A stretch of 64,000 nt of DNA from positions 333,001-397,000 of the forward strand of contig NAJO01000011.1 of assembly GCA_002077065.1 (NCBI GenBank), in the 5' to 3' direction. A model generated the notes under the pieces. The model saw nothing but the letters and a program-made list of their open reading frames with translations, ran no database searches and was not told where the DNA came from. This DNA is from Cryoendolithus antarcticus (Eukaryota > Ascomycota > Dothideomycetes > Cladosporiales > Cladosporiaceae). The translations under genes and the position numbers were made by a program. This document shows, one piece after another, positions 5,629 through 35,928 of the stretch; the first letter of the stretch is position 1; each line of letters begins with the position of its first letter.

Positions 5629-5798
5629 GAACAGAGCGGTACTAACAAGGTATAAAGCTGAAGCGCCAGCAGAGCAGAATCGTGGACTGTGTCGCGGACC
5701 GCGAGGGATAAGGAGACTTTAGCTTACGTCTGAAACCCAACACGAGATTTACTGGGGATTACGAAGCTTTGCATGCCGTGGGGAATCGTTAATCGCTA

Positions 5799-6863
5799 TC
5801 AAGGCAGGTTGATCACCACCTTACCCACACACCTCCCACTATTCAGCCGCTCGAACGCCTTCAATGCATCATCGTAGTCGAATTCGCTATCCACGAATAT
5901 CTGATCCGGCGTCAGAGTCTCCTTCACCTCCTCCAGCCACTCCCGCTTCATCTTCAACATGACCACATCATACTCCTCACCTAGCCCGACCTGTCCCTTC
6001 GCCCACCGTGCCCATTGTAGCGGCGCATGATACGACAGCGGATTATAGTACGTATACGGTCCACCCATCGACGATCGTCCAGTCTTGTCGCCCACAATGG
6101 AGATGTACTTCTTGCTGCTCTGTAAGCCCACGCACTCGGTCCCGCCGACGCAGTCAATGACCGCCACGGGCTTGAAGGCATCGATTGCAGCTCGCACGCT
6201 CTTGACAGCTGTGTAGTCCACATGCTCGTCTGCTCCAAGCGTCTTCGTGATGAAGTCCTTGTTCTTCCCCGAGCTCGTCGCGATTACATTCCATCCCCTC
6301 TTCTTCGCCAACAGGATGACATAGATTCCCGCCGCTGAGCTTCCACCTAGCACCGCGATCCTCTTTCCCTCCTCGTCCTCCACTTTAGCATTCACGTCCT
6401 CGATGCACGTTCGCGCTGTGAGCCAGACGAGGCTTATCGCAGCAGCCTTCGCCCAACTCCAGTCCTTCGGCTTCTTAACCGCAACAGTATTAGCCATATC
6501 AAACTCTGCCATCCCCGCCAAGCTTCCCCCGCCGTACTTCGCCGGATTCAGCGTGAGGCCAAACACTTCCTCATCCTTGATGAAGCCCGTGCGACCTCCC
6601 GCTTCCACGATACCGGCAAAATCGCAGACCACGCCTTTCTCTTGCTTCTTCGGCGCCGTGGGAGTAATGGAGGAGTTCAAGTTGATCATTTGTATGTCTA
6701 CGGGGTTCAAGGCGCAGGCTTTCAGCCGGATGAGCATGTGCGCTGTGGTGCCTAGGCCTTTGATGTCGTTTGGGCGGGGGACGCGGACTGTGGACTGTTT
6801 GAGGCCATTGGGGTAGCCGCCGGAGACATAGGTCCAGGCTTTGACTTCTTGCGTGTCGGCCAT
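5799..6863 (-). CDS. MDR-family (zinc-type alcohol dehydrogenase-like) oxidoreductase
   Basis: A single exon of 354 residues, normal for medium-chain dehydrogenase/reductases of the quinone-oxidoreductase/enoyl-reductase type. An N-terminal GroES-like part (ACALNPVDIQM, KGVVCDFAGIVEAGG) is followed by a Rossmann NADP-binding part (RIAVLGGSSAAGIYVILLAK, ATSS). The structural and catalytic zinc cysteines are missing, as in quinone reductase-like members. The substrate is unknown. The last 51 residues are repeated almost exactly in an orphan fragment at 30552-30707 elsewhere in this window, with ten of eleven base differences silent. Fungal relatives include YIM1/AST-like and trans-enoyl-reductase-like proteins. 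Confidence 0.9.
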   Translation of the reverse strand: MADTQEVKAWTYVSGGYPNGLKQSTVRVPRPNDIKGLGTTAHMLIRLKACALNPVDIQMINLNSSITPTAPKKQEKGVVCDFAGIVEAGGRTGFIKDEEVFGLTLNPAKYGGGSLAGMAEFDMANTVAVKKPKDWSWAKAAAISLVWLTARTCIEDVNAKVEDEEGKRIAVLGGSSAAGIYVILLAKKRGWNVIATSSGKNKDFITKTLGADEHVDYTAVKSVRAAIDAFKPVAVIDCVGGTECVGLQSSKKYISIVGDKTGRSSMGGPYTYYNPLSYHAPLQWARWAKGQVGLGEEYDVVMLKMKREWLEEVKETLTPDQIFVDSEFDYDDALKAFERLNSGRCVGKVVINLP

Positions 6864-7502
6864 GGTTGCGGAAGTGGATGAGTCTGTGTCTTGGGGAGTT
6901 TGAGGAGAGAGCGACAGGAGTGTGAGAAATTACATGGTGCAGATAGCTGACTGCACGCCTCACGCATGTGCTTCTCGGATCTCATTCCACCAACGCCTCC
7001 AGTAGGAGCACTGGCCAGTTTCCGGCCCCACATCACATCTGACATAGAGCAGACACCGGGATAGGAGTACAACAGGTTCGTGACTTCATGACACAAAACT
7101 TGTAACTCTATGTAGAGCGGCAGGTTTGCTGCAGACTTTCTCGCACCAATCTACTGTAGCAGGGCCAGTACGCCCGGCAAAGCGCAAGTCGAGGAAGAAG
7201 CTATCCGGTCTGCTGCTTTCGTACGAGACCACCTCTCCTGTTCATTCGCTGCGCGCAGTGCCCTGTATCGTGGTGTGTTCAAGTGGAGCGAGTCTTTTTC
7301 GTGATATTGGTTGGAACATGCCGATACCGTTCTATGTGCATACTGTATCGTGCCCATGTGCGTAGCCCGATGCCCCCCCGCCCGGATCGCTATGCTACCT
7401 TATCTATACACCAGCAGTCCTGTGCTCGCTTGTGTCGATTGACCTTTTGCTTGCCTGTGATTTCCTCCATCAGTCTTACAGCGCTACCATGTCTCGCTTC
7501 TC
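6864..7502. other. Intergenic stretch
   Basis: Upstream region of the MDR oxidoreductase and 3' region of the next minus-strand gene. I see no coding signal, tRNA or repeat. Confidence 0.5.
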
Positions 7503-8037
7503 TCATTTGCCCTTGTCATTGCCTAGCATAGCGTTCCGGTACGCTTTCGATGCGGTGTTGTCCATCTTTGGGCTTTTCAGATCCCCATGTTTTGCCTCAA
7601 ATGCAGGCGTGCCGACACCATTCATAGTTTCCTGGTTTGATGTTACAGCTTCTGCGTTACCTGACATCGAGTATTCGTTAGCGACTCGTTCCCCAATCCT
7701 TTCTGTCAAAGTCGGTTACAGGCCTGGAAACTCGCTTGATCGAGGCCATTATCTGTATATCAGGAAGACTCCGGAGGGTGACTTGCCTGACTGACCTCGT
7801 GGTGTTGCGACCCCGGGCAAGTGTGTCTTCGTGCCTCCACCAGCTGAATATCGGTCGCCAATGTTCTTCACTCCAGGTGTCTCGAATGCGTTCCTTCGTC
7901 CGAGTTAGTAATCGCTCGTTGATTCTCGCAGACTCGTATTCATCTTACGGTGTTACTTTTGCGGCTGCCCGAGGGAAGAAAAACACCCCGGCTCCTACGA
8001 CGCCAGCTGCCACAATGAGGTTCCGTCTTGATGCCAT
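7503..8037 (-). CDS. Small hydrophilic protein with N-terminal membrane anchor (three exons)
   Basis: Hand-spliced on the minus strand: exons 8037-7949, 7893-7796 and 7660-7503 (345 nt, 114 residues). Introns of 55 and 135 bp have GTAAGA/GTCAGT donors and a CTAAC branch site just before each acceptor, and the phases close (2, then 1). The protein starts MASRRNLIVAAGVVGAGVFF, one short hydrophobic segment. A hydrophilic tail follows with TPGVKNIGDRYSAGGGTKTH and GVATPRG motifs. I have seen this TPGV...Y...GG...TH pattern in small fungal proteins, possibly mitochondrial, but I know no function. It lies in the same orientation as its neighbours. Confidence 0.75.
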
Positions 8038-8565
8038 CGCGATTCGGTCTGTTTTGTGTAAGGTCAATGTGAATGGCGGGGTGAAGTCAGATTGGTCTTC
8101 TATGAAGATTGACAATGTTCAAGACTACTAACGGTCACCAAAGGGACTGATCTAGACTTTCGCATGTTTCTTCCAACGACACATCAATTGCGTCAGTGCT
8201 CCGGATTATCCTCCGCTACACGAGCACTAGTCAGGAACGACCCCCGTCTAGCGGCGGCGATCGACGGCAGCGGATCGTGGAGTTCGAGATCTTTCGCGCT
8301 TGGCGATGAATTGGACCGTTGATCTCCATGGACTGTGTTCTACATCTTGAAGCTTCTCATTGGCATCTGGAGCTTTACCATCACGCACTCGAGGCCCGCA
8401 TGGTATCTCAGACCTCACTTCACCTACCCTCCGATAGCGTAGACTCCTGTCAGCGGCTATCATGTTCGATCTGATCTACAACAGGAGGCTCTTGGATTCA
8501 ATGGTGGAGGGTAGAGATGCAGCGACAGCACCTCGCAGAATAGCGTCTGTCCTGAATCCGACCCT
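8038..8565. other. Intergenic stretch
   Basis: Promoter side of the small three-exon gene and 3' side of the VOC dioxygenase. No further feature is seen. Confidence 0.45.
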
Positions 8566-9634
8566 TCAGAATACGGATGGAACGGGTGGCCCCCAGACAC
8601 TGAGCGATTGCGGACCCGCGGGCACATGTGCGACCGGAGTGTCTTTGTTGACCAGGTCTCCATCTGCGTAATGCTCGACAATGAAGCCGCTCGTATCGAA
8701 CCAGTAGTCGAACTACTCATTGATTAGTGTCAATAACATGCTGCAGGGTGGGCTACATCTTTTCACCCACCACTTGACTGCCCAGCACGTGCTGTGGAAC
8801 ATTAGCAACGTTTGGGCATGTGATCTAGCTCGCCTAACTTACTCTGCCTACTCCCCAGCAAAGCTCATACTTCTTCTCCGCTAAATACTGATGTCCCAGC
8901 TGCTGCACATCGAAGTCGTGCAACTCAAAAGCTGCATGTGCGACAGCCGGCTTGTCTCCGGGCTTCGCGGGCTTGAAGAAGAATGCGTGGTGGTCGCTGT
9001 ACTCAAGACCTCTATCAACGTGGAAGAAACAAGTTACAGGATCCTCTCCTCGATACACCACATCGCTCGGCGCCAGTGCAAGAGTTTGCGTGTACCACTC
9101 GAACATCTCCTGGTAATTCCCAGCTGGATACGTAACGCCATAATGGCCCCAACGGAATACTGGTGCTGGCCCGGGTTGAAACCGCTGAAAAGCGCCTTTG
9201 CGAGGTTTCGAGTCCTCGAAATTCACCACAAGCTTGGGGAGGTTGAGCGGATCAGCTTCCTTTTCCGTCCAGCCGTGGATAAGGTGCACGATGTGGCCAG
9301 CTGGATCTTTGAGACTGACGACTTGACCGCCTCCAGGACCCTCGAGTGCGCCGACCTTGTCAATACAGCTGTCCAGTCTCGACGCGCGCTCGAGCTCGCT
9401 TGCGCTGTCGACGACATAGGCTGCGCCGCCGAAGTGACTTGTACTTGCGGACGACTGCTCGGCGACGTAAACATAAGGCTCAGTCCCACAGCCTTTGAAG
9501 TAGATCTTGTGACCTGGCTCCTCTCGGGCGATGGTCAGGCCAAAGTCGAGGAGAAATTGGCGCGCTTTGGCGAGGTCACCGTGGTGATACGTGACAAACG
9601 CCGTCTTCAGCAACTGAATGGGTGAGTCTGCCAT
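8566..9634 (-). CDS. Glyoxalase/VOC-fold extradiol dioxygenase-like protein (three exons)
   Basis: Exons on the minus strand are 9634-8843, 8791-8771 (a 21-base micro-exon) and 8712-8566. That makes 960 nt and 319 residues, all joins in phase 0. Two vicinal-oxygen-chelate modules are visible. The first is around residues 8-120 (KTAFVTYHHGDLAKARQFL, SLKDPAGHIVHLIHG). The second begins near residue 160 (FRWGHYGVTYPAGNYQEMFEWY) and has HVDRGLEYSDHHAFFF and AHAAFELHDFDV. The splice restores HVLGSQVFDYWFDTSGFIVEH, the usual metal-ligand end of 2,3-dihydroxybiphenyl 1,2-dioxygenase-like proteins. Such enzymes open catechol-type rings using Fe(II). It heads a group of oxidative genes and is the only one of them without a disabling change. 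Confidence 0.85.
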
Positions 9635-29100: not shown

Positions 29101-30221
29101 ATGTCCGCGAGCATGTCGAGAATTGCCCCAGAAGTCATAGACATCGGATCCTCCGACGATGATGAAGCCAGTGTCGACTCCAACGATGAGGAGCTACCCA
29201 GACGTGCACACGGTTCGCCAACGCCACCGCCCAATGGAATGACGCTATCAGAGGCAATCGCAACGGTATCGGAGCAGACGCTGCGAGACGTTCTGACCAA
29301 GGTTTGCGCTGGACAGAGGTCAAGTCGTGCATTCGTCACCAATCTGCTGTCACACCCTGTGCCAGGACCTGTATCAGAAAAGCCCCAGTATCAGGCACGC
29401 TACCAGAATTGCAAGCACTGCAAGGAGCAGTACGAAGTGCAGTCGAATGATGTCGTCTCATGTAGATATCATCCAGGTTTGTGACCATTTACCCGCCCTC
29501 CGATGCTGGCTGACCGAAGCAGGCGAAAAGGAAGTCGATTACGACGGCGACTTCTGGGCAGACAACGACGCTGACGTGCATGGCGATCCGGAGGAGCTCA
29601 TCCAGGAAGATAACTCGGACTACGACGAGGGAGCGAAGTGGAACTGTTGTGACGCAAACGGCGGAGCTGAAGGCTGCTTGCGAAGTAGGCATCAGCCAAA
29701 GATTGACCCTTTTGCTGCTCGCAGACCTCTCAAACAGCCCTATAATGTCGCCGCGAGCATGCCTGCCGCAGCGAGGTTAAAGGCCAGTCCACCGGAGCCT
29801 GCAACGCACCTTGGATCTGTCACCGGCAATGCTGCAAAGCCAATTTCAGTGTCTGCCAAGCGGAAGTATGTCGACTTCGCTACCTGCATCTACTGTCCGG
29901 CTGCCTATGATGTTGATCGCAACGACTTGACTGCCTGCAAGGCTCATAGCGGTAACCCTGTTGTCTTCGCAAACCAGTTCGAGACCTTGCTAATCCTCAG
30001 CAGGCCAGAAGGACGTCGACTACGGATCAGATACATGGTGTGATCACAGCAACGCCTGTCACGGCCGTCCTGAGACACTGATCAGAACTGATCCCGCCAC
30101 TTACGACGGAGGTGCTATGGGGTCTTGCTGTAAGGCGTCGGGTTACGAAACTGTGTGTACCCGGGCACACCCGCATTACACGCCCCTGGGAAGCAGGAAG
30201 ACTCAGCGACTGGTGCTCTGA
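29101..30221 (+). CDS. Protein with two tandem Cys/His modules (three exons)
   Basis: Exons 29101-29476, 29523-29951 and 30004-30221 (1023 nt, 340 residues; both introns in phase 1). The N-terminus is acidic with a SUMO-interaction-like patch (EVIDIGSSDDDE). Two homologous modules follow. The first reads CKHCKEQYEV..SCRYHPG, EKEVDYDGDFWADNDADVHG and WNCCDANGGAEGCLRSRH. The second reads CIYCPAAYDV..ACKAHSG, QKDVDYGSDTWCDHSNACHG and GSCCKASGYETVCTRAHPHY. The spacing C-x2-C, C-x3-H, CC and C-x3-H suggests metal binding. I have met single copies of this module in fungal proteins of unknown function. The frame could extend upstream to an ATG at 28975. Its downstream neighbours are the gene fragments at 30.3-30.7 kb. 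Confidence 0.8.
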
Positions 30222-30322: not shown

Positions 30323-30551
30323 TTACGCGTCTCTGGGCTGCTCTTCAGCAGCATTCTCAATCAAGGCGTGCAGTATCAACGTCTTGTAGCCGTCAACAGC
30401 ATCAAAGAGCTCCTTCTCAGTCGTCGCCTCGTGATTAGAGTGAGCCACCAGGATCGATCCAGGGCCATATAGATACCTCTTCTGCCCTTTGACGGTCTGC
30501 TCCAGGTTCGGGATGTCCGTTCCGTAGTTGACAGTGATGGGCTTGCCGAAC
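30323..30551 (-). pseudogene. Orphan 3' fragment of an M20 peptidase gene
   Basis: About 61 residues in one open frame (ITVNYGTDIPNLEQTVKGQ through AVDGYKTLILHALI) match the C-terminus of the full M20 peptidase at 34666-35928. I count about 50 of 61 residues and roughly 77% of bases identical by eye. The metal-site HSNHE (HSDHE in the full gene) is kept. There is no start and no upstream part: similarity begins abruptly at 30551, exactly where the MDR fragment begins on the other strand. Protein identity exceeds base identity and the frame is unbroken, so the source was a working gene until recently. It has the same orientation as the full copy 4 kb away. Confidence 0.85.
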
Positions 30552-30707
30552 AAGATGAAGCGGGAGTGGCCGGAGGAAGTTAAGGAGACTCTGACGCCGG
30601 ACCAGATATTCGTGGACAGCGAGTTCGACTACGATGACGCATTGAAGGCGTTCGAGCGGCTGAACAGTGGGAGGTGTGTGGGTAAGGTTGTGATCAACTT
30701 ACCTTGA
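30552..30707 (+). pseudogene. Orphan 3' fragment of an MDR oxidoreductase gene
   Basis: Fifty-one codons plus stop, from KMKREWPEEVKETLTPDQIF to GRCVGKVVINLP. They match the last 51 residues of the oxidoreductase at 5799-6863, with 145 of 156 bases identical. Of the eleven differences ten are silent, and one changes Leu to Pro. That pattern is not what neutral decay of a copied piece gives; it points to descent from a functional relative (paralogue or another strain or species). Similarity to the gene continues no further upstream, where the M20 fragment begins. There is no start codon context or promoter, so it is not an expressed gene as it stands. Confidence 0.88.
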
Positions 30708-30981
30708 GAATAGATCAATGATCAAATGCCATGAGCTACGACGGAATGTCCTTCAGCCGGATATGTAGGTCTGACAGCTCTACGGTGTATCGCATTAACG
30801 TTTCATTCCACTTCGAGCAATAGTCACCGAGCGAGGCAGGTAGGGAAAGCACGTTGAGACTAGCGCTTCATTGAGCAATACACACTCTGCCCTCTCATCC
30901 CGCTACAGCGAATTAGCAATCTCCCTAGGCGATACACACTCTACCATCTCGTGCTTCTAGCGATAGGCACTATTGACCGGG

Positions 30982-33950
30982 TCAATACTGGCTGGAGTCC
31001 TCCGAGTCAGCGATCTCCGTGCTGGAAGACTGCAGGATCGGGGGATCGTAGTGCTCTTCACCAGAATGCAGGATGATGTAGTCGTCGCGGAGATAGCACT
31101 GATCGCCGTCCAGGACGAAGTGAGTATAGTCGCGGTCCATAGTCTCACGAACAATCTTCTGCACGCCAAAGCCGCTGCGAACGGCATGGCTGCGCTTGAG
31201 AGGTTGCTTGCGGATCAATAGGCACGGGATCTCATCGATGTCTCCGCAGATCTTCATCTCAAGCTGTGGAGACGCCTTCGTCCTATCACGTCGCCAGGTA
31301 CAGACCGTGAACCCAAGCGACTGCGCAAGCGTTACCGTATCCCAGAAATGACGAGAATGCCATTCCTCTGCTTGAGAAATGGTGATGGCGTGGACCCAGT
31401 AAGCGTAATGGCCATCGGAATCGATCATACCAGCAAGGAGAGCTAGACGCACTTCGCGAGAGTTGTCCATGTAGACAGCAGGAATGTGCTTTCGATCCGC
31501 AGCGGCGCCTGTAACCCCCTTCGCCACTGTCAGATTCAGTCGATGCAAGGCCTGGAGCAGTGTATTGATCTTGCGGGGTGCCTTGGGGGGGTCAACAGAG
31601 CTTAGATTGTCTTGTTCGGCATTCCCCAGGATGCCGTCGACAAGGGCGTCCTCTTCGGCCGGCTCAAGGTCGCCATATGTACGGGCACCAGATTGTAGCG
31701 TGATGGCGGTGTCCTCTTCATTACTTGGCTCCGTAATGAAGACTACATCATCGATGTCTAATGAATCAATTGTCTCCATGTTGTCCGCAGGTTGCTCAAA
31801 CATGTCGAGAATGTCAAGTTCGTGCTCCTTGTCAGCATCAGCTAGAACTTCCGCGGGACCCACCAGACTGCGAGTGTTCCGATCAGACATTAGCAGCTCT
31901 GAAATGGTTCCTTGATGAGGTGATGAGGCATCGCTCGGATGAGGGTCCAAGGACAGTGCTGCTCTGGCGGGAACTGTATCATCAGAAGAGTCTGGTATAA
32001 TTGGATGGCCGCACTTGCGATGTTGTGCCCTAGGCTGTGCCAGAAGTGTAGAGCCTGTAGCGAGTGAAGGTGAGTCGTCATCGGCATCTGAGGAGTCCGG
32101 GATGACATGGCGGCCACTCTTACGGCGCTGCATGGGTGGCTGGGCGGGAAGAGGTGGACTCGAAGGGGGATCACGCTTCTGCGTGATTGCGGAAGTGACG
32201 GCCGACATAGCGGATCTGGTCACATCTGCCTCTTCGTAGTCATCTGCTAGGCCCCCTGATGGAATTCCAAACTTATCAGACGCCACAATCGGTACATTGA
32301 CCATTGAATCATCTGCAGCGTATGAGTCGGCAGGAGGCAGCCAAAACCGCTTCTCACCAGGCTTCCGGTTGACTTGTGTCCTCCAGCCAGCTGCGATACG
32401 CTGTTTGTACAATGTCTGGCGACTGATTCGCCGAGTCGGACGCCAGGCAGTGGGACCTGATGCTATGGTTGGGGGTAGATCGGCCGCACGTCCCGGGCCG
32501 GCATTTGCGACGAGCCCGTACTGGACGCCGCCGTAGTAGATGAGATGCAGATCTAGCTCGGCGGCGAAATTTGCGAGGAACCCACGGGTTTCAGACTCGT
32601 GACCGGTGGCAATGATGGCGCCGCGCCGTGACCCATCGCCCAGCCATAGGCCAACAAAATATGGATCGATAGGCACAGGTCGCCCGGGCAGCTGGAATCC
32701 TGACGACTTAAGAAATCGATGGCGCGACTTCTCACTATCTGGCATGGCCGCAAGAGACTGTGCCGATACAACGACGGTATCGAAGGGGCTGCCCATCGTC
32801 ACTTCAGCCAAATGCGCTTCGACTTCGTTCAAGTCGTCATCGGTATCCATGCCTTCGTTCTCGGTATCATCAGAGCCGGGCCCAGATGTCCAAGTGGTAG
32901 GGAAGAAGTAATCGCGACAATGTTTCAAGCGGTCGCGCGTGATCTCAGCCCGAATACTCAGTCGGGAACCGTTGGTGCGCCACACGAGTACCAGACCGGG
33001 TATGCATCTGTCGACCGGTATGTACCCGCCGCTGCTAGTATCGACGGCATCAAAGCGCTGGCGTAGATTCGCAACTGTGATCGCGCCAACGCTGTGCACT
33101 TCGCGAGAGCGTTGGATGGCGGCCGCGAAAGCTTCCTGCTGCGATTCGTAGAAAACTGCTTGATCGCCTTGATTGGTACGTTGATCATTGCCCCAGGCAA
33201 AGTTGGCCCAGATCTTTTTACCATCATCGTCGTGGCCGAGCAGGACTTGATAACTTGCAGTCGACGACCGGATACCGGTGGTACCATTCAGATAGTTGCG
33301 CAATATGCTCGTCGCCAACTCGTTATCACGCGGAAAGTTGAGCTGCCACATGATAGCGCTCCGCAAAGCCGCCATGAGACTGCTGCGTTCCTTCAGTACG
33401 CGCCTTGGTCGATCGACATCACCAGGTTCAGAGCTTGGCTCAGGGAACGTCCCATACTGTTGCTGCAGGCGGATGATGTGGTCTTCAAGCGTGGGTCCTT
33501 CGAAGTATTTTGCACGGCCGAGGACTGAACCCCCCTTCAACCTCTGCAGAGAGAGCATTGAGTCGCATGTGACCAGGAGATCAGCTCGATTGGCGATAGT
33601 GATACAGTAGAGGTAGTGGCTCGATCTCGATATGCCGGAAATTGTGATACTACGTCAGCGTCTCCGAGACGATGGAGGGTGGGCAGTGATTCTGTCGATA
33701 TGGCTGCCGCAGTGCGGAGCTATACTGCTTTGATTGTGAGCAAGTAGCGCCACTGCAGTGGCAACTATGCACATCACGCTCCCGTAGCAAGTATGAAAGT
33801 GAAGGCATTGTGAAGGGCTAAGGGGGCAAGCAACGTACCCTTGCGACATCCTCCATCTGGTCCGAGCAGTTCATCGCCATCTTGCAGGTCTCTCAAGGCG
33901 ACCTTCTGCGTTCTGTTAGAGCGGTACACAAGCATCTCAGACGACGCCAT
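30982..33950 (-). CDS. Free-standing intein-like Hint + LAGLIDADG homing endonuclease
   Basis: A large minus-strand gene: a short exon starting at the ATG 33950 and a long exon from 33649 to the stop at 30982, about 927 residues if joined through a weak donor at 33834. The stronger GTACGT donor at 33838 leaves the wrong phase. The N-terminus is an intein-type Hint block (VALRDLQDGDELLGPDGGCRK, then ITISGISRSSHYLYCITI and ADLLVTCDSMLSL) with no preceding extein. Two LAGLIDADG helices follow: PYFVGLWLGDGS (about 32628-32663) and LLAGMIDSDGHY (about 31405-31440), both with the metal-binding Asp. The Hint C-terminus is HFVLDGDQCYLRDDYIILHS (about 31063-31122). The intein Cys1, block-B His and terminal Asn are replaced, so it should not splice. 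An acidic, Ser-rich disordered insert separates the two LAGLIDADG halves. Its closest concept is yeast HO. Confidence 0.85.
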
Positions 33951-34665
33951 ACTGCTCGACCGATGAGAGTGAAGTGTATTGAATTCCAGTGGAGTATGCG
34001 TGTGTGAGCGGTTTGAAAGGTTGCTCGTCCGAAGAAAGGAAGTGTCAAGTGCGAGAAACCGCGTTAGGCAGCGTCCCCCAGCATCGTGACTTCCGCGGAA
34101 AGCGCGTGCTGCGCGCGTATTGCTGGAGCGAACTTGACGACAACCAGCCATGGTTTGACCCGGTCAAATTGCCCAGCATTGTCATATGAGTTTGTGTGAT
34201 GTGGTTGCGTTGTTGGTGTATGGCGACCGCAGCCTCCGGGTTGTGTAGCTTGGGTGGATTGTGAGTGAGTTTTCATGGCGACCGGAGCCGCGGGTGTGTG
34301 AAGCTTGTGCGATGTGTGGATCTGATGGGTATATGGGCGTCCGCAGAGCCCGAGTTGTACAGCTTGAGTGATGTAGGAAGTGATCTTAAGTGAGTGTTAT
34401 TGACGACCGGAACCGCTGGTAGGTGTAACGTGCAGGCATCGCAACAGTCAATTCTCCCACGTTGCAACGGTGGACGATGGTCATTCCGCGGACCACCGTT
34501 GCAAGTGTTCTGACTTGCGTACAATGAGGCGCGTTACATGGGCAAAGTGACAGTGTTGGTGTAGTGGAGAAGCGCACCCTCATTCCTCGCAAACGATTGC
34601 TCAGCCTTATCGATTGCTCGTCGATCGCTTGACACGTGACGCTCCCCGGTACGTGCTCAGCATTC
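33951..34665. other. Spacer between endonuclease and M20 peptidase genes
   Basis: Upstream region of the endonuclease and downstream region of the peptidase. It holds the degenerate tandem repeats listed separately, and no gene. Confidence 0.5.
34221..34440. repeat. Four degenerate tandem repeats of about 55-67 bp
   Basis: Units begin at about 34221, 34276, 34334 and 34401 (the last partial). Each opens with tggcgaccg-like sequence (tggcgaccgcagcc, tggcgaccggagcc, tgggcgtccgcagagcc, tgacgaccggaacc), then a g/t-rich stretch with gtgtagctt / gtgaagctt / gtacagctt. The spacing and order of motifs are the same in each unit while the bases have drifted. They lie in the promoter side of the endonuclease gene. 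Confidence 0.6.
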
Positions 34666-35928
34666 CTAGCGCCCAGGCTCACTGAACATGCCGTCTGGTA
34701 TCTCCTTCCCACCATACGCAATCATAGCGTGCAGTATGAGTGTCTTGTACCCGTCAACAGCATTCACCAGCTCGCGCTCCGTCACAGCCTCATGATCAGA
34801 GTGCGCCACTAGTATTGAGCCAGGCCCGTACAAGTACCTCTTCTGACCCTCCACGGTCTTATCGAAATTTGGGATGTCGGTTCCGTAGTTCACTGTGATG
34901 GACTCGAATCCAGGCACATCGGCGTCGATGACGATTGGTCCATAGCCCTCACTGGTGAACACCACATCGATCACATCTTCCCACCGCATACCCTTCTCCA
35001 GGAAGGCAGCGACTGATTGCTCGACCGCCCCCAGAGTGTGTTCTTTGATCATCGCTGGTGTCCCTTTAGCAATGCGGAAGGCCAGGCTGGCAGAGGCACT
35101 CTCGGGAATGACGTTGGCTGCCACGCCGCCGGTCATCTTGCCGATGTTCATAGTGGTCTCTCCGAAGGTCTCGCTCGTTGGTAAGCCTTTTACCATCTTC
35201 ATCAGCCCGCTCAGGGCTGCAATAAGGACTTCGTTCGCGCTTCGTCCAAGCCACGGATAGCCAGAGTGGGCTGCCTTTCCTTTGGCTCGTATGGTGACGC
35301 CAAGGTTGCCTTTATGGCCACAGCAAAGTTTGTTGTCTGTTGGTTCACCGAAGATGATCGTCCGCGGCCGCAAGTTCAAGTCGTTCGCTGCTCGTGCGCC
35401 TGAACCACCCACCTCCTCACCCACAACAAACAGCAGACTAACATCATCCGGACTAACCTCCCTACTCTCCAACAGCCCGTTCAGAGCCAGCACCTGCGTA
35501 GCTACACTCCCCTTTGCATCCACACTTCCCCGTCCAGTAATAACCCCAGTAGTAGCATTATGCGTATACGGCCAAAACGGTGGCACAGTGTCGATGTGAC
35601 TCGACAACAGCACCCTAGTCTCACGCTTCTTGCCCGGCCAAGCGAGTAGATTGAACCGTGGAGGCTTCCCACCTAGTGGCTGGGACTGCACACTGTACCC
35701 TTGCGATTGCAAAGACTTGGTCAGCCAGACGCCGACGTCGTGCTCGTTGCCGGAGATGGACTCGATTTGCGTTAGGTTCTTGTGGAAGGCGAGGAGGTCG
35801 TACGTTAGGTGGAGATGATTGTAGGATAAGTCTGAGGCAAGGACATCTTGGACCTGCTGGGTCTTTGCGAAGACAGAGCTTTGGAAGAAAGCTCCAGCAG
35901 TGAGGATGGCAGAAAAGGGTAAGTGCAT
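34666..35928 (-). CDS. Secreted M20-family metallopeptidase (carboxypeptidase / ArgE-like)
   Basis: A single exon of 420 residues with an N-terminal signal peptide (about residues 1-21, MHLPFSAILTAGAFFQSSVF). Metal-binding residues of the M20 family are all visible: SSHIDTVPPF (His111, Asp113), GRGSVDAKGS (Asp137), VGEEVGG (Glu171/172), FGEPTDN (Glu195) and HSDHE near residue 376. The dimerisation-domain block GKAAHSGYPWLG is also present. Fungal members are secreted zinc carboxypeptidases or acetylornithine deacetylase-like enzymes. A second, broken copy of its C-terminus lies beyond the endonuclease gene at 30323-30551 in the same orientation, so this gene may be the insertion target of that element. 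Confidence 0.9.
   Translation of the reverse strand: MHLPFSAILTAGAFFQSSVFAKTQQVQDVLASDLSYNHLHLTYDLLAFHKNLTQIESISGNEHDVGVWLTKSLQSQGYSVQSQPLGGKPPRFNLLAWPGKKRETRVLLSSHIDTVPPFWPYTHNATTGVITGRGSVDAKGSVATQVLALNGLLESREVSPDDVSLLFVVGEEVGGSGARAANDLNLRPRTIIFGEPTDNKLCCGHKGNLGVTIRAKGKAAHSGYPWLGRSANEVLIAALSGLMKMVKGLPTSETFGETTMNIGKMTGGVAANVIPESASASLAFRIAKGTPAMIKEHTLGAVEQSVAAFLEKGMRWEDVIDVVFTSEGYGPIVIDADVPGFESITVNYGTDIPNFDKTVEGQKRYLYGPGSILVAHSDHEAVTERELVNAVDGYKTLILHAMIAYGGKEIPDGMFSEPGR

Follow-up and report, generated by a model that had tools for sequence, protein, structure and literature searches.

A free-standing, intein-derived homing endonuclease gene beside a chimeric M20 peptidase gene in Cryoendolithus antarcticus

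Contig NAJO01000011.1 of the Antarctic rock fungus Cryoendolithus antarcticus (earlier named Rachicladosporium antarcticum, according to PMC10739867) harbors a minus-strand gene for a Hint/LAGLIDADG homing endonuclease, and the gene upstream of it encodes an M20 peptidase. The window, that is, the whole 64,000-nt stretch analyzed here (positions 333,001 to 397,000), is part of contig C13 of a 47-Mb assembly in 149 contigs; coordinates without a contig or locus name are those of the window.

The endonuclease gene is real. Exon 1 (33840..33950, minus strand) starts at 33950 and encodes the Hint N-block, and the main open reading frame (ORF; 30982..33654, minus strand) has 890 codons including the stop. 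An initial annotation, made from the sequence alone, had described an intein-like protein that lacks exteins and has lost its splicing residues; its account of the gene, the free-standing state and the lost residues stands, while other parts needed correction. Besides the N-block, the expected build comprises, all on the minus strand, the two LAGLIDADG motifs LWLGDGS (32629..32649) and MIDSDGH (31408..31428) and the Hint C-block YLRDDYIILHS (31063..31095). The start Met occupies the position of the intein Cys1 in an alignment made by hand, block B (TCDSMLSL, 33547..33570, minus strand) has no His, and the C-block has no terminal Asn. A tail motif, TEIADSED, follows at 30997..31020 (minus strand). 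The spacer between the M20 stop and the endonuclease ATG (33951..34665, minus strand) is presumed to hold the promoter and contains imperfect repeats of about 51 nt. The corresponding database entry, P0001 (B0A48_05800 of C. antarcticus), is 100% identical, with 96% of the query covered. The Pfam Hom_end match is weak and below the cut-off, and Pfam LAGLIDADG_3 has no match in the C. antarcticus genome, in which the endonuclease gene itself matches one place only.

A protein homolog search with the endonuclease as query returned 11 proteins: P0001 itself, P0002 and nine more, among them P0004, whose sequence is cut short. Eight of these nine contain a Prp8 domain or, behind the intein end, the start of the Prp8 C-extein (SGFE), and the Prp8 inteins with an endonuclease domain (P0003, P0006 and others) are 32–38% identical to the C. 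antarcticus protein. P0002 (B0A51_01579 of Rachicladosporium sp. CCFEE 5018; 40% identity over 53% of the query) is itself free-standing. It begins with MASSDM where the C. antarcticus gene has MASSEM, at the intein Cys1 position, it has likewise lost the block-B His and the terminal Asn, and the tail motif TEIADSxD is common to both (TEIADSQD in P0002). A tree computed from 300 columns of 16 sequences, none of them an HO or WHO endonuclease of yeasts, separates the two proteins from the rest with support of 100/100; the outgroup was five other intein proteins, one named as a bacterial replicative helicase and four labelled bacterial by us. A nine-sequence profile scored against solved structures matched Prp8 inteins (1e-25 at best) and PI-SceI/VDE (2e-9 to 1e-8). 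No further free-standing relative was found by a second search with a two-row alignment, in which scoring was limited to the 7995 candidates sharing most words and the 10 matches were the pair, three Prp8-type proteins and five others. The endonuclease gene is not inside a host protein, and both homeologous Prp8 genes of this genome (L030 on C1 and L031 on C62) carry separate short inteins that lack LAGLIDADG motifs and end LHN/SGFEES.

Best matches, tree and profile scores support descent of the endonuclease from a Prp8-type intein, as the initial annotation had suspected from the C-block. Because the closest matches and the profile scores point to Prp8 inteins, this escape from an intein was probably separate from that of the VMA-derived HO/WHO line, whose sequences stood outside the comparison. 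With a sister free-standing gene present in Rachicladosporium sp. CCFEE 5018, the endonuclease and P0002 form a small family.

The neighboring M20 gene is a chimera. Its resident 5′ part covers codons 1–197 (35338..35928, minus strand, ATG at 35928) and its foreign 3′ part covers codon 198 to the stop (34666..35337, minus strand). Compared with the M20 protein of Rachicladosporium sp. CCFEE 5018 (P0013), the window's protein has 3/195 aligned positions changed as far as residue 197 and 59/210 beyond it (Fisher p 1e-15); the split point was picked from the data, and all p values given here are to be weighed accordingly. Among the pairwise comparisons of M20 halves (the first 50 of 120 listed homologs, one dropped for length, giving 1176 pairs), the window and P0013 have the highest 3′/5′ ratio of tree distances, 39, against 3.1 for the next pair and a median of 1.0. 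Swapped groupings were rejected by approximately unbiased tests (p 0.003 for the 3′ part and p 0.043 for the 5′ part). Window genes have homeologs of about 81% DNA identity on contig C46. The M20 homeolog there shows no such break when compared with P0013, the tree distance between the two being 0.176 in the 5′ part and 0.097 in the 3′ part. It differs from the foreign 3′ part at 57/210 positions and, at 73%, is the next best place for that part in the genome. The motifs SHIDT, GSVDAKG, GEE, GEPT and HSDHE, which we take to be those expected of an M20 active site, are all retained in the chimeric protein.

What lies behind the endonuclease gene is the old M20 end. A 195-nt copy of the M20 3′ end was detected there in the same orientation (76% to the present end, E 1e-35); the displaced end as a whole spans 30327..30550 (minus strand), has 86% DNA identity to C46, and agrees with P0013 in 72/74 residues. 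Between it and the endonuclease gene, at the right-hand junction, sits a truncated 196-nt 3′ end of ADH, a dehydrogenase gene (30552..30747, plus strand, 91% to C46). In its coding part, this fragment shows 11/153 nt differences to the window's own ADH (nine codons silent, one not) and 14/153 to C46 (13 codons silent, one not). Because these differences are mostly silent, they suggest a related donor's functional ADH as the source of the fragment and not a decayed local copy. On C46, M20, a gene designated Z, and ADH are consecutive, and this homeologous copy is free of the insertion, having no endonuclease gene. In the window, Z (29103..29708, minus strand, two pieces of 70% and 74% to L008 4859–5449) comes after the displaced M20 end, which is therefore in its old place, since Z also lies behind M20 on C46. 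With a 5′ part at 3/195 differences, a 3′ part at 59/210 and a downstream copy at 72/74 relative to P0013, the locus must once have held a whole M20 gene of the P0013 type, the 3′ half of which was replaced and the old end of which now stands behind the endonuclease gene.

The ADH block that follows Z on C46 has moved in the window to 5784..9624 (plus strand, 81% to L008 5703–9494). The order of these two features thus differs from that on C46, which is consistent with an inversion between Z and ADH.

Several other places resemble parts of this locus. The palindrome TTGACCSGGTCAA flanks the endonuclease gene at 30973–30985 and 34155–34167. It was considered as the ends of the element and rejected: it occurs at 11 genome sites, against one for the reversed control, and the flanks of these sites are unlike those in the window except for two short stretches near one site. 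Given these counts and the mostly dissimilar flanks, TTGACCSGGTCAA is more likely a regulatory motif than an element end. Two stretches upstream of the endonuclease, 34056–34109 (85% over 54 nt) and 34219–34249 (90% over 31 nt), resemble C13:758513–758900, a region that also contains TTGACCSGGTCAA; the ORF downstream of it resembles a tyrosine recombinase by eye. Two homeologous regions (L038 6596–6769 on C90 and L039 5439–5603 on C114) each hold an isolated M20 3′-end relic, one with an internal stop; no match to the endonuclease was obtained there with E values of up to 1, and the relics were treated as an old pseudogene.

A precedent for such an arrangement exists in the WHO elements of Torulaspora and Lachancea. 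According to Coughlan et al. 2020 (PMC7282813), these free-standing genes cut a host gene, swap in a resistant 3′ end and displace the old end. We consider it probable that the C. antarcticus gene, a free-standing homing endonuclease gene derived from a Prp8-type intein, operates in the same way or has recently done so. The endonuclease would cut a sensitive M20 allele, at a site that we place near codon 197, and the break would be repaired from a donor chromosome in which the endonuclease gene stands behind an M20 3′ end that is divergent and presumably resistant. The copied donor DNA would replace the resident 3′ end and carry the endonuclease gene along, leaving M20 full-length yet chimeric, with its old 3′ end shifted downstream as a dead fragment. 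The left side would be a homologous switch within M20, and the right side looks like end joining. There, copying apparently overran the endonuclease gene into the donor's ADH 3′ end, so that the ADH piece would be donor DNA copied before the ends were joined, and the resident end would have lost codons 198 to about 340 before closure.

The same structure could be read as a one-off ectopic insertion, in which the endonuclease gene arrived as passenger DNA when a chance break close to the M20 end was repaired, the chimera and the fragment are scars, and M20 was no target. The end-joined right side with its ADH fragment, the single insertion in the genome, and a P0002 seemingly not beside the M20 gene of its strain all fit this reading; however, the left side is a switch between homologous sequences inside M20, the incoming DNA consists of a complete M20 3′ end and then the endonuclease gene, as in a WHO unit, and random capture needs no homologous 3′ end. 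We regard it as unlikely. Less probable again is an unrelated gene conversion or introgression that made the M20 chimera, with a tandem 3′ duplication and the endonuclease gene arising next to it by chance. The 3′ half may indeed evolve unevenly, given that the halves are unequal in relatives too: the M20 protein of Oleoguttula sp. CCFEE 5521 (P0015) differs from that of C46 at 31/195 positions in the 5′ part and 53/210 in the 3′ part (p 0.03). Yet separate events at one locus would be required, and the fragment displaced downstream corresponds exactly to the resident end that M20 now lacks (72/74).

A misjoining of M20 and its surroundings from homeologous copies during assembly has to be considered in a duplicated 47-Mb genome sequenced with short reads at 41x (PMC5502844), but neither the foreign 3′ half (next best copy 73%) nor the endonuclease gene, with its single place in the genome, has another close copy in the assembly. 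Neither can therefore stem from a mixture of assembled copies, and an artifact of this kind seems very improbable. Domestication as an HO-like endonuclease that serves the host, for example in mating-type switching, would agree with the kind of protein and its free-standing state; the absence of a zinc finger, a MAT alpha-box match that lies on another contig, and a locus resembling a recent insertion leave it scarcely credible.

Homing into M20 by a WHO-like mechanism, which we prefer, has to be weighed against several observations that tell the other way. It is represented by one insertion in one genome. The locus tag number of P0002 (01579) is far from that of the CCFEE 5018 M20 gene (06785), in an assembly that was scaffolded by synteny to that of C. 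antarcticus (PMC5502844). Among the 120 homologs listed, none is the donor of the foreign M20 3′ half. The displaced fragment begins about 140 codons past the inferred switch, with the ADH piece between, which a simple WHO model does not predict. DNA identity to C46 falls about 60 nt ahead of codon 197 (91, 76 and 66 matches in successive 100-nt blocks). The inferred cut site does not clearly resemble the homing site in Prp8: the sites of the two Prp8 copies match at 18/40 and 19/40 positions near the junction, the second tying with three other places for the best on its strand, and on the opposite strand matches rise to 21 and 23 elsewhere; this comparison was not used as evidence. Finally, on our reading, a canonical-looking splice donor of exon 1 leads out of the main frame and the in-frame donor is weak. 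The junction between exon 1 and the main ORF is thus doubtful and may be broken, and for the same reason this copy may already be decaying, or its start codon may be an internal one of the main ORF. In the public database, the gene model P0001 has yet another structure, with the M20 fragment fused in.

The unequal halves of P0015 (tree distances to C46 of 0.486 for the 3′ part and 0.190 for the 5′ part) may reflect recurrent replacement, or only uneven evolution. It is possible, though we would put it at somewhat under an even chance, that the WHO type of element has a second origin, in a Prp8 intein of filamentous ascomycetes, and has recurrently replaced the 3′ half of M20 in Cryoendolithus and its relatives. 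In that case, endonuclease genes coupled to a resistant host 3′ end would constitute a general class of homing elements, reached convergently and standing alongside introns and inteins.

As far as the sources cited describe it, homing by swapping a host-gene 3′ end has been known from some budding yeasts. What appears to be new, judged on sequence evidence, is such a footprint in a filamentous fungus, left by the descendant of a different intein in a different host gene, without a zinc finger. The initial annotation knew of no counterpart, and among the open-access papers listed, judged by title and beginning of abstract, we found neither a Prp8-derived free-standing endonuclease nor a WHO-type element outside budding yeasts. 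If this reading is true, inteins can escape their host protein more than once, and the zinc finger thought to have redirected HO and WHO is dispensable. Such elements would rewrite the 3′ ends of host genes, here in another subphylum and another gene. Further cases could be sought by looking for genes whose 3′ end is discordant and which have the old end displaced downstream.

The initial annotation compared the gene with yeast HO. That parallel holds insofar as HO, as described in PMC7282813, is also free-standing and without exteins. The C. antarcticus protein differs from it in having no zinc finger, and nothing suggests a MAT role: no mating-type link was found, the single MAT alpha-box match being on contig C78 and not on C13. 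WHO is the better parallel, because the neighboring peptidase gene bears a WHO footprint, which lies outside the stretch that the initial annotation covered and is absent from it. With Prp8 inteins the gene shares the Hint and LAGLIDADG layout over its whole length; they sit in Prp8 and, where complete, keep Cys1, the block-B His and the terminal Asn, whereas the C. antarcticus gene keeps none of these and has no exteins, lying between M20 and an M20 fragment. P0002 is alike in its start Met, lost residues and tail motif, and differs in a long acidic tail and in the remote locus tag. Like WHO elements, the locus has a free-standing intein-like LAGLIDADG gene without exteins, a host gene with a replaced, discordant 3′ end, and a displaced host-gene 3′ fragment behind the endonuclease gene; the ADH fragment recalls WHO10 insertions, which also include 3′ fragments of other genes (PMC7282813). 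It differs in that no CxxC, the signature of the C-terminal zinc finger of WHO, occurs in the main ORF or P0002. The host gene is an M20 peptidase rather than FBA1, downstream of which most WHO genes lie, some families being elsewhere (PMC7282813). There is a single copy here, in contrast to clusters of genes and pseudogenes, and the relationship appears to be of Prp8 type rather than VDE-like in comparisons with Prp8 inteins and PI-SceI/VDE. The host is a filamentous Dothideomycete, and cleavage, known for WHO, is predicted here. Because it has no zinc finger, no FBA1 neighbor and no clusters, we do not class the locus as a member of WHO; it is better framed as one that would work like a WHO element, the WHO type having been reached from another intein.
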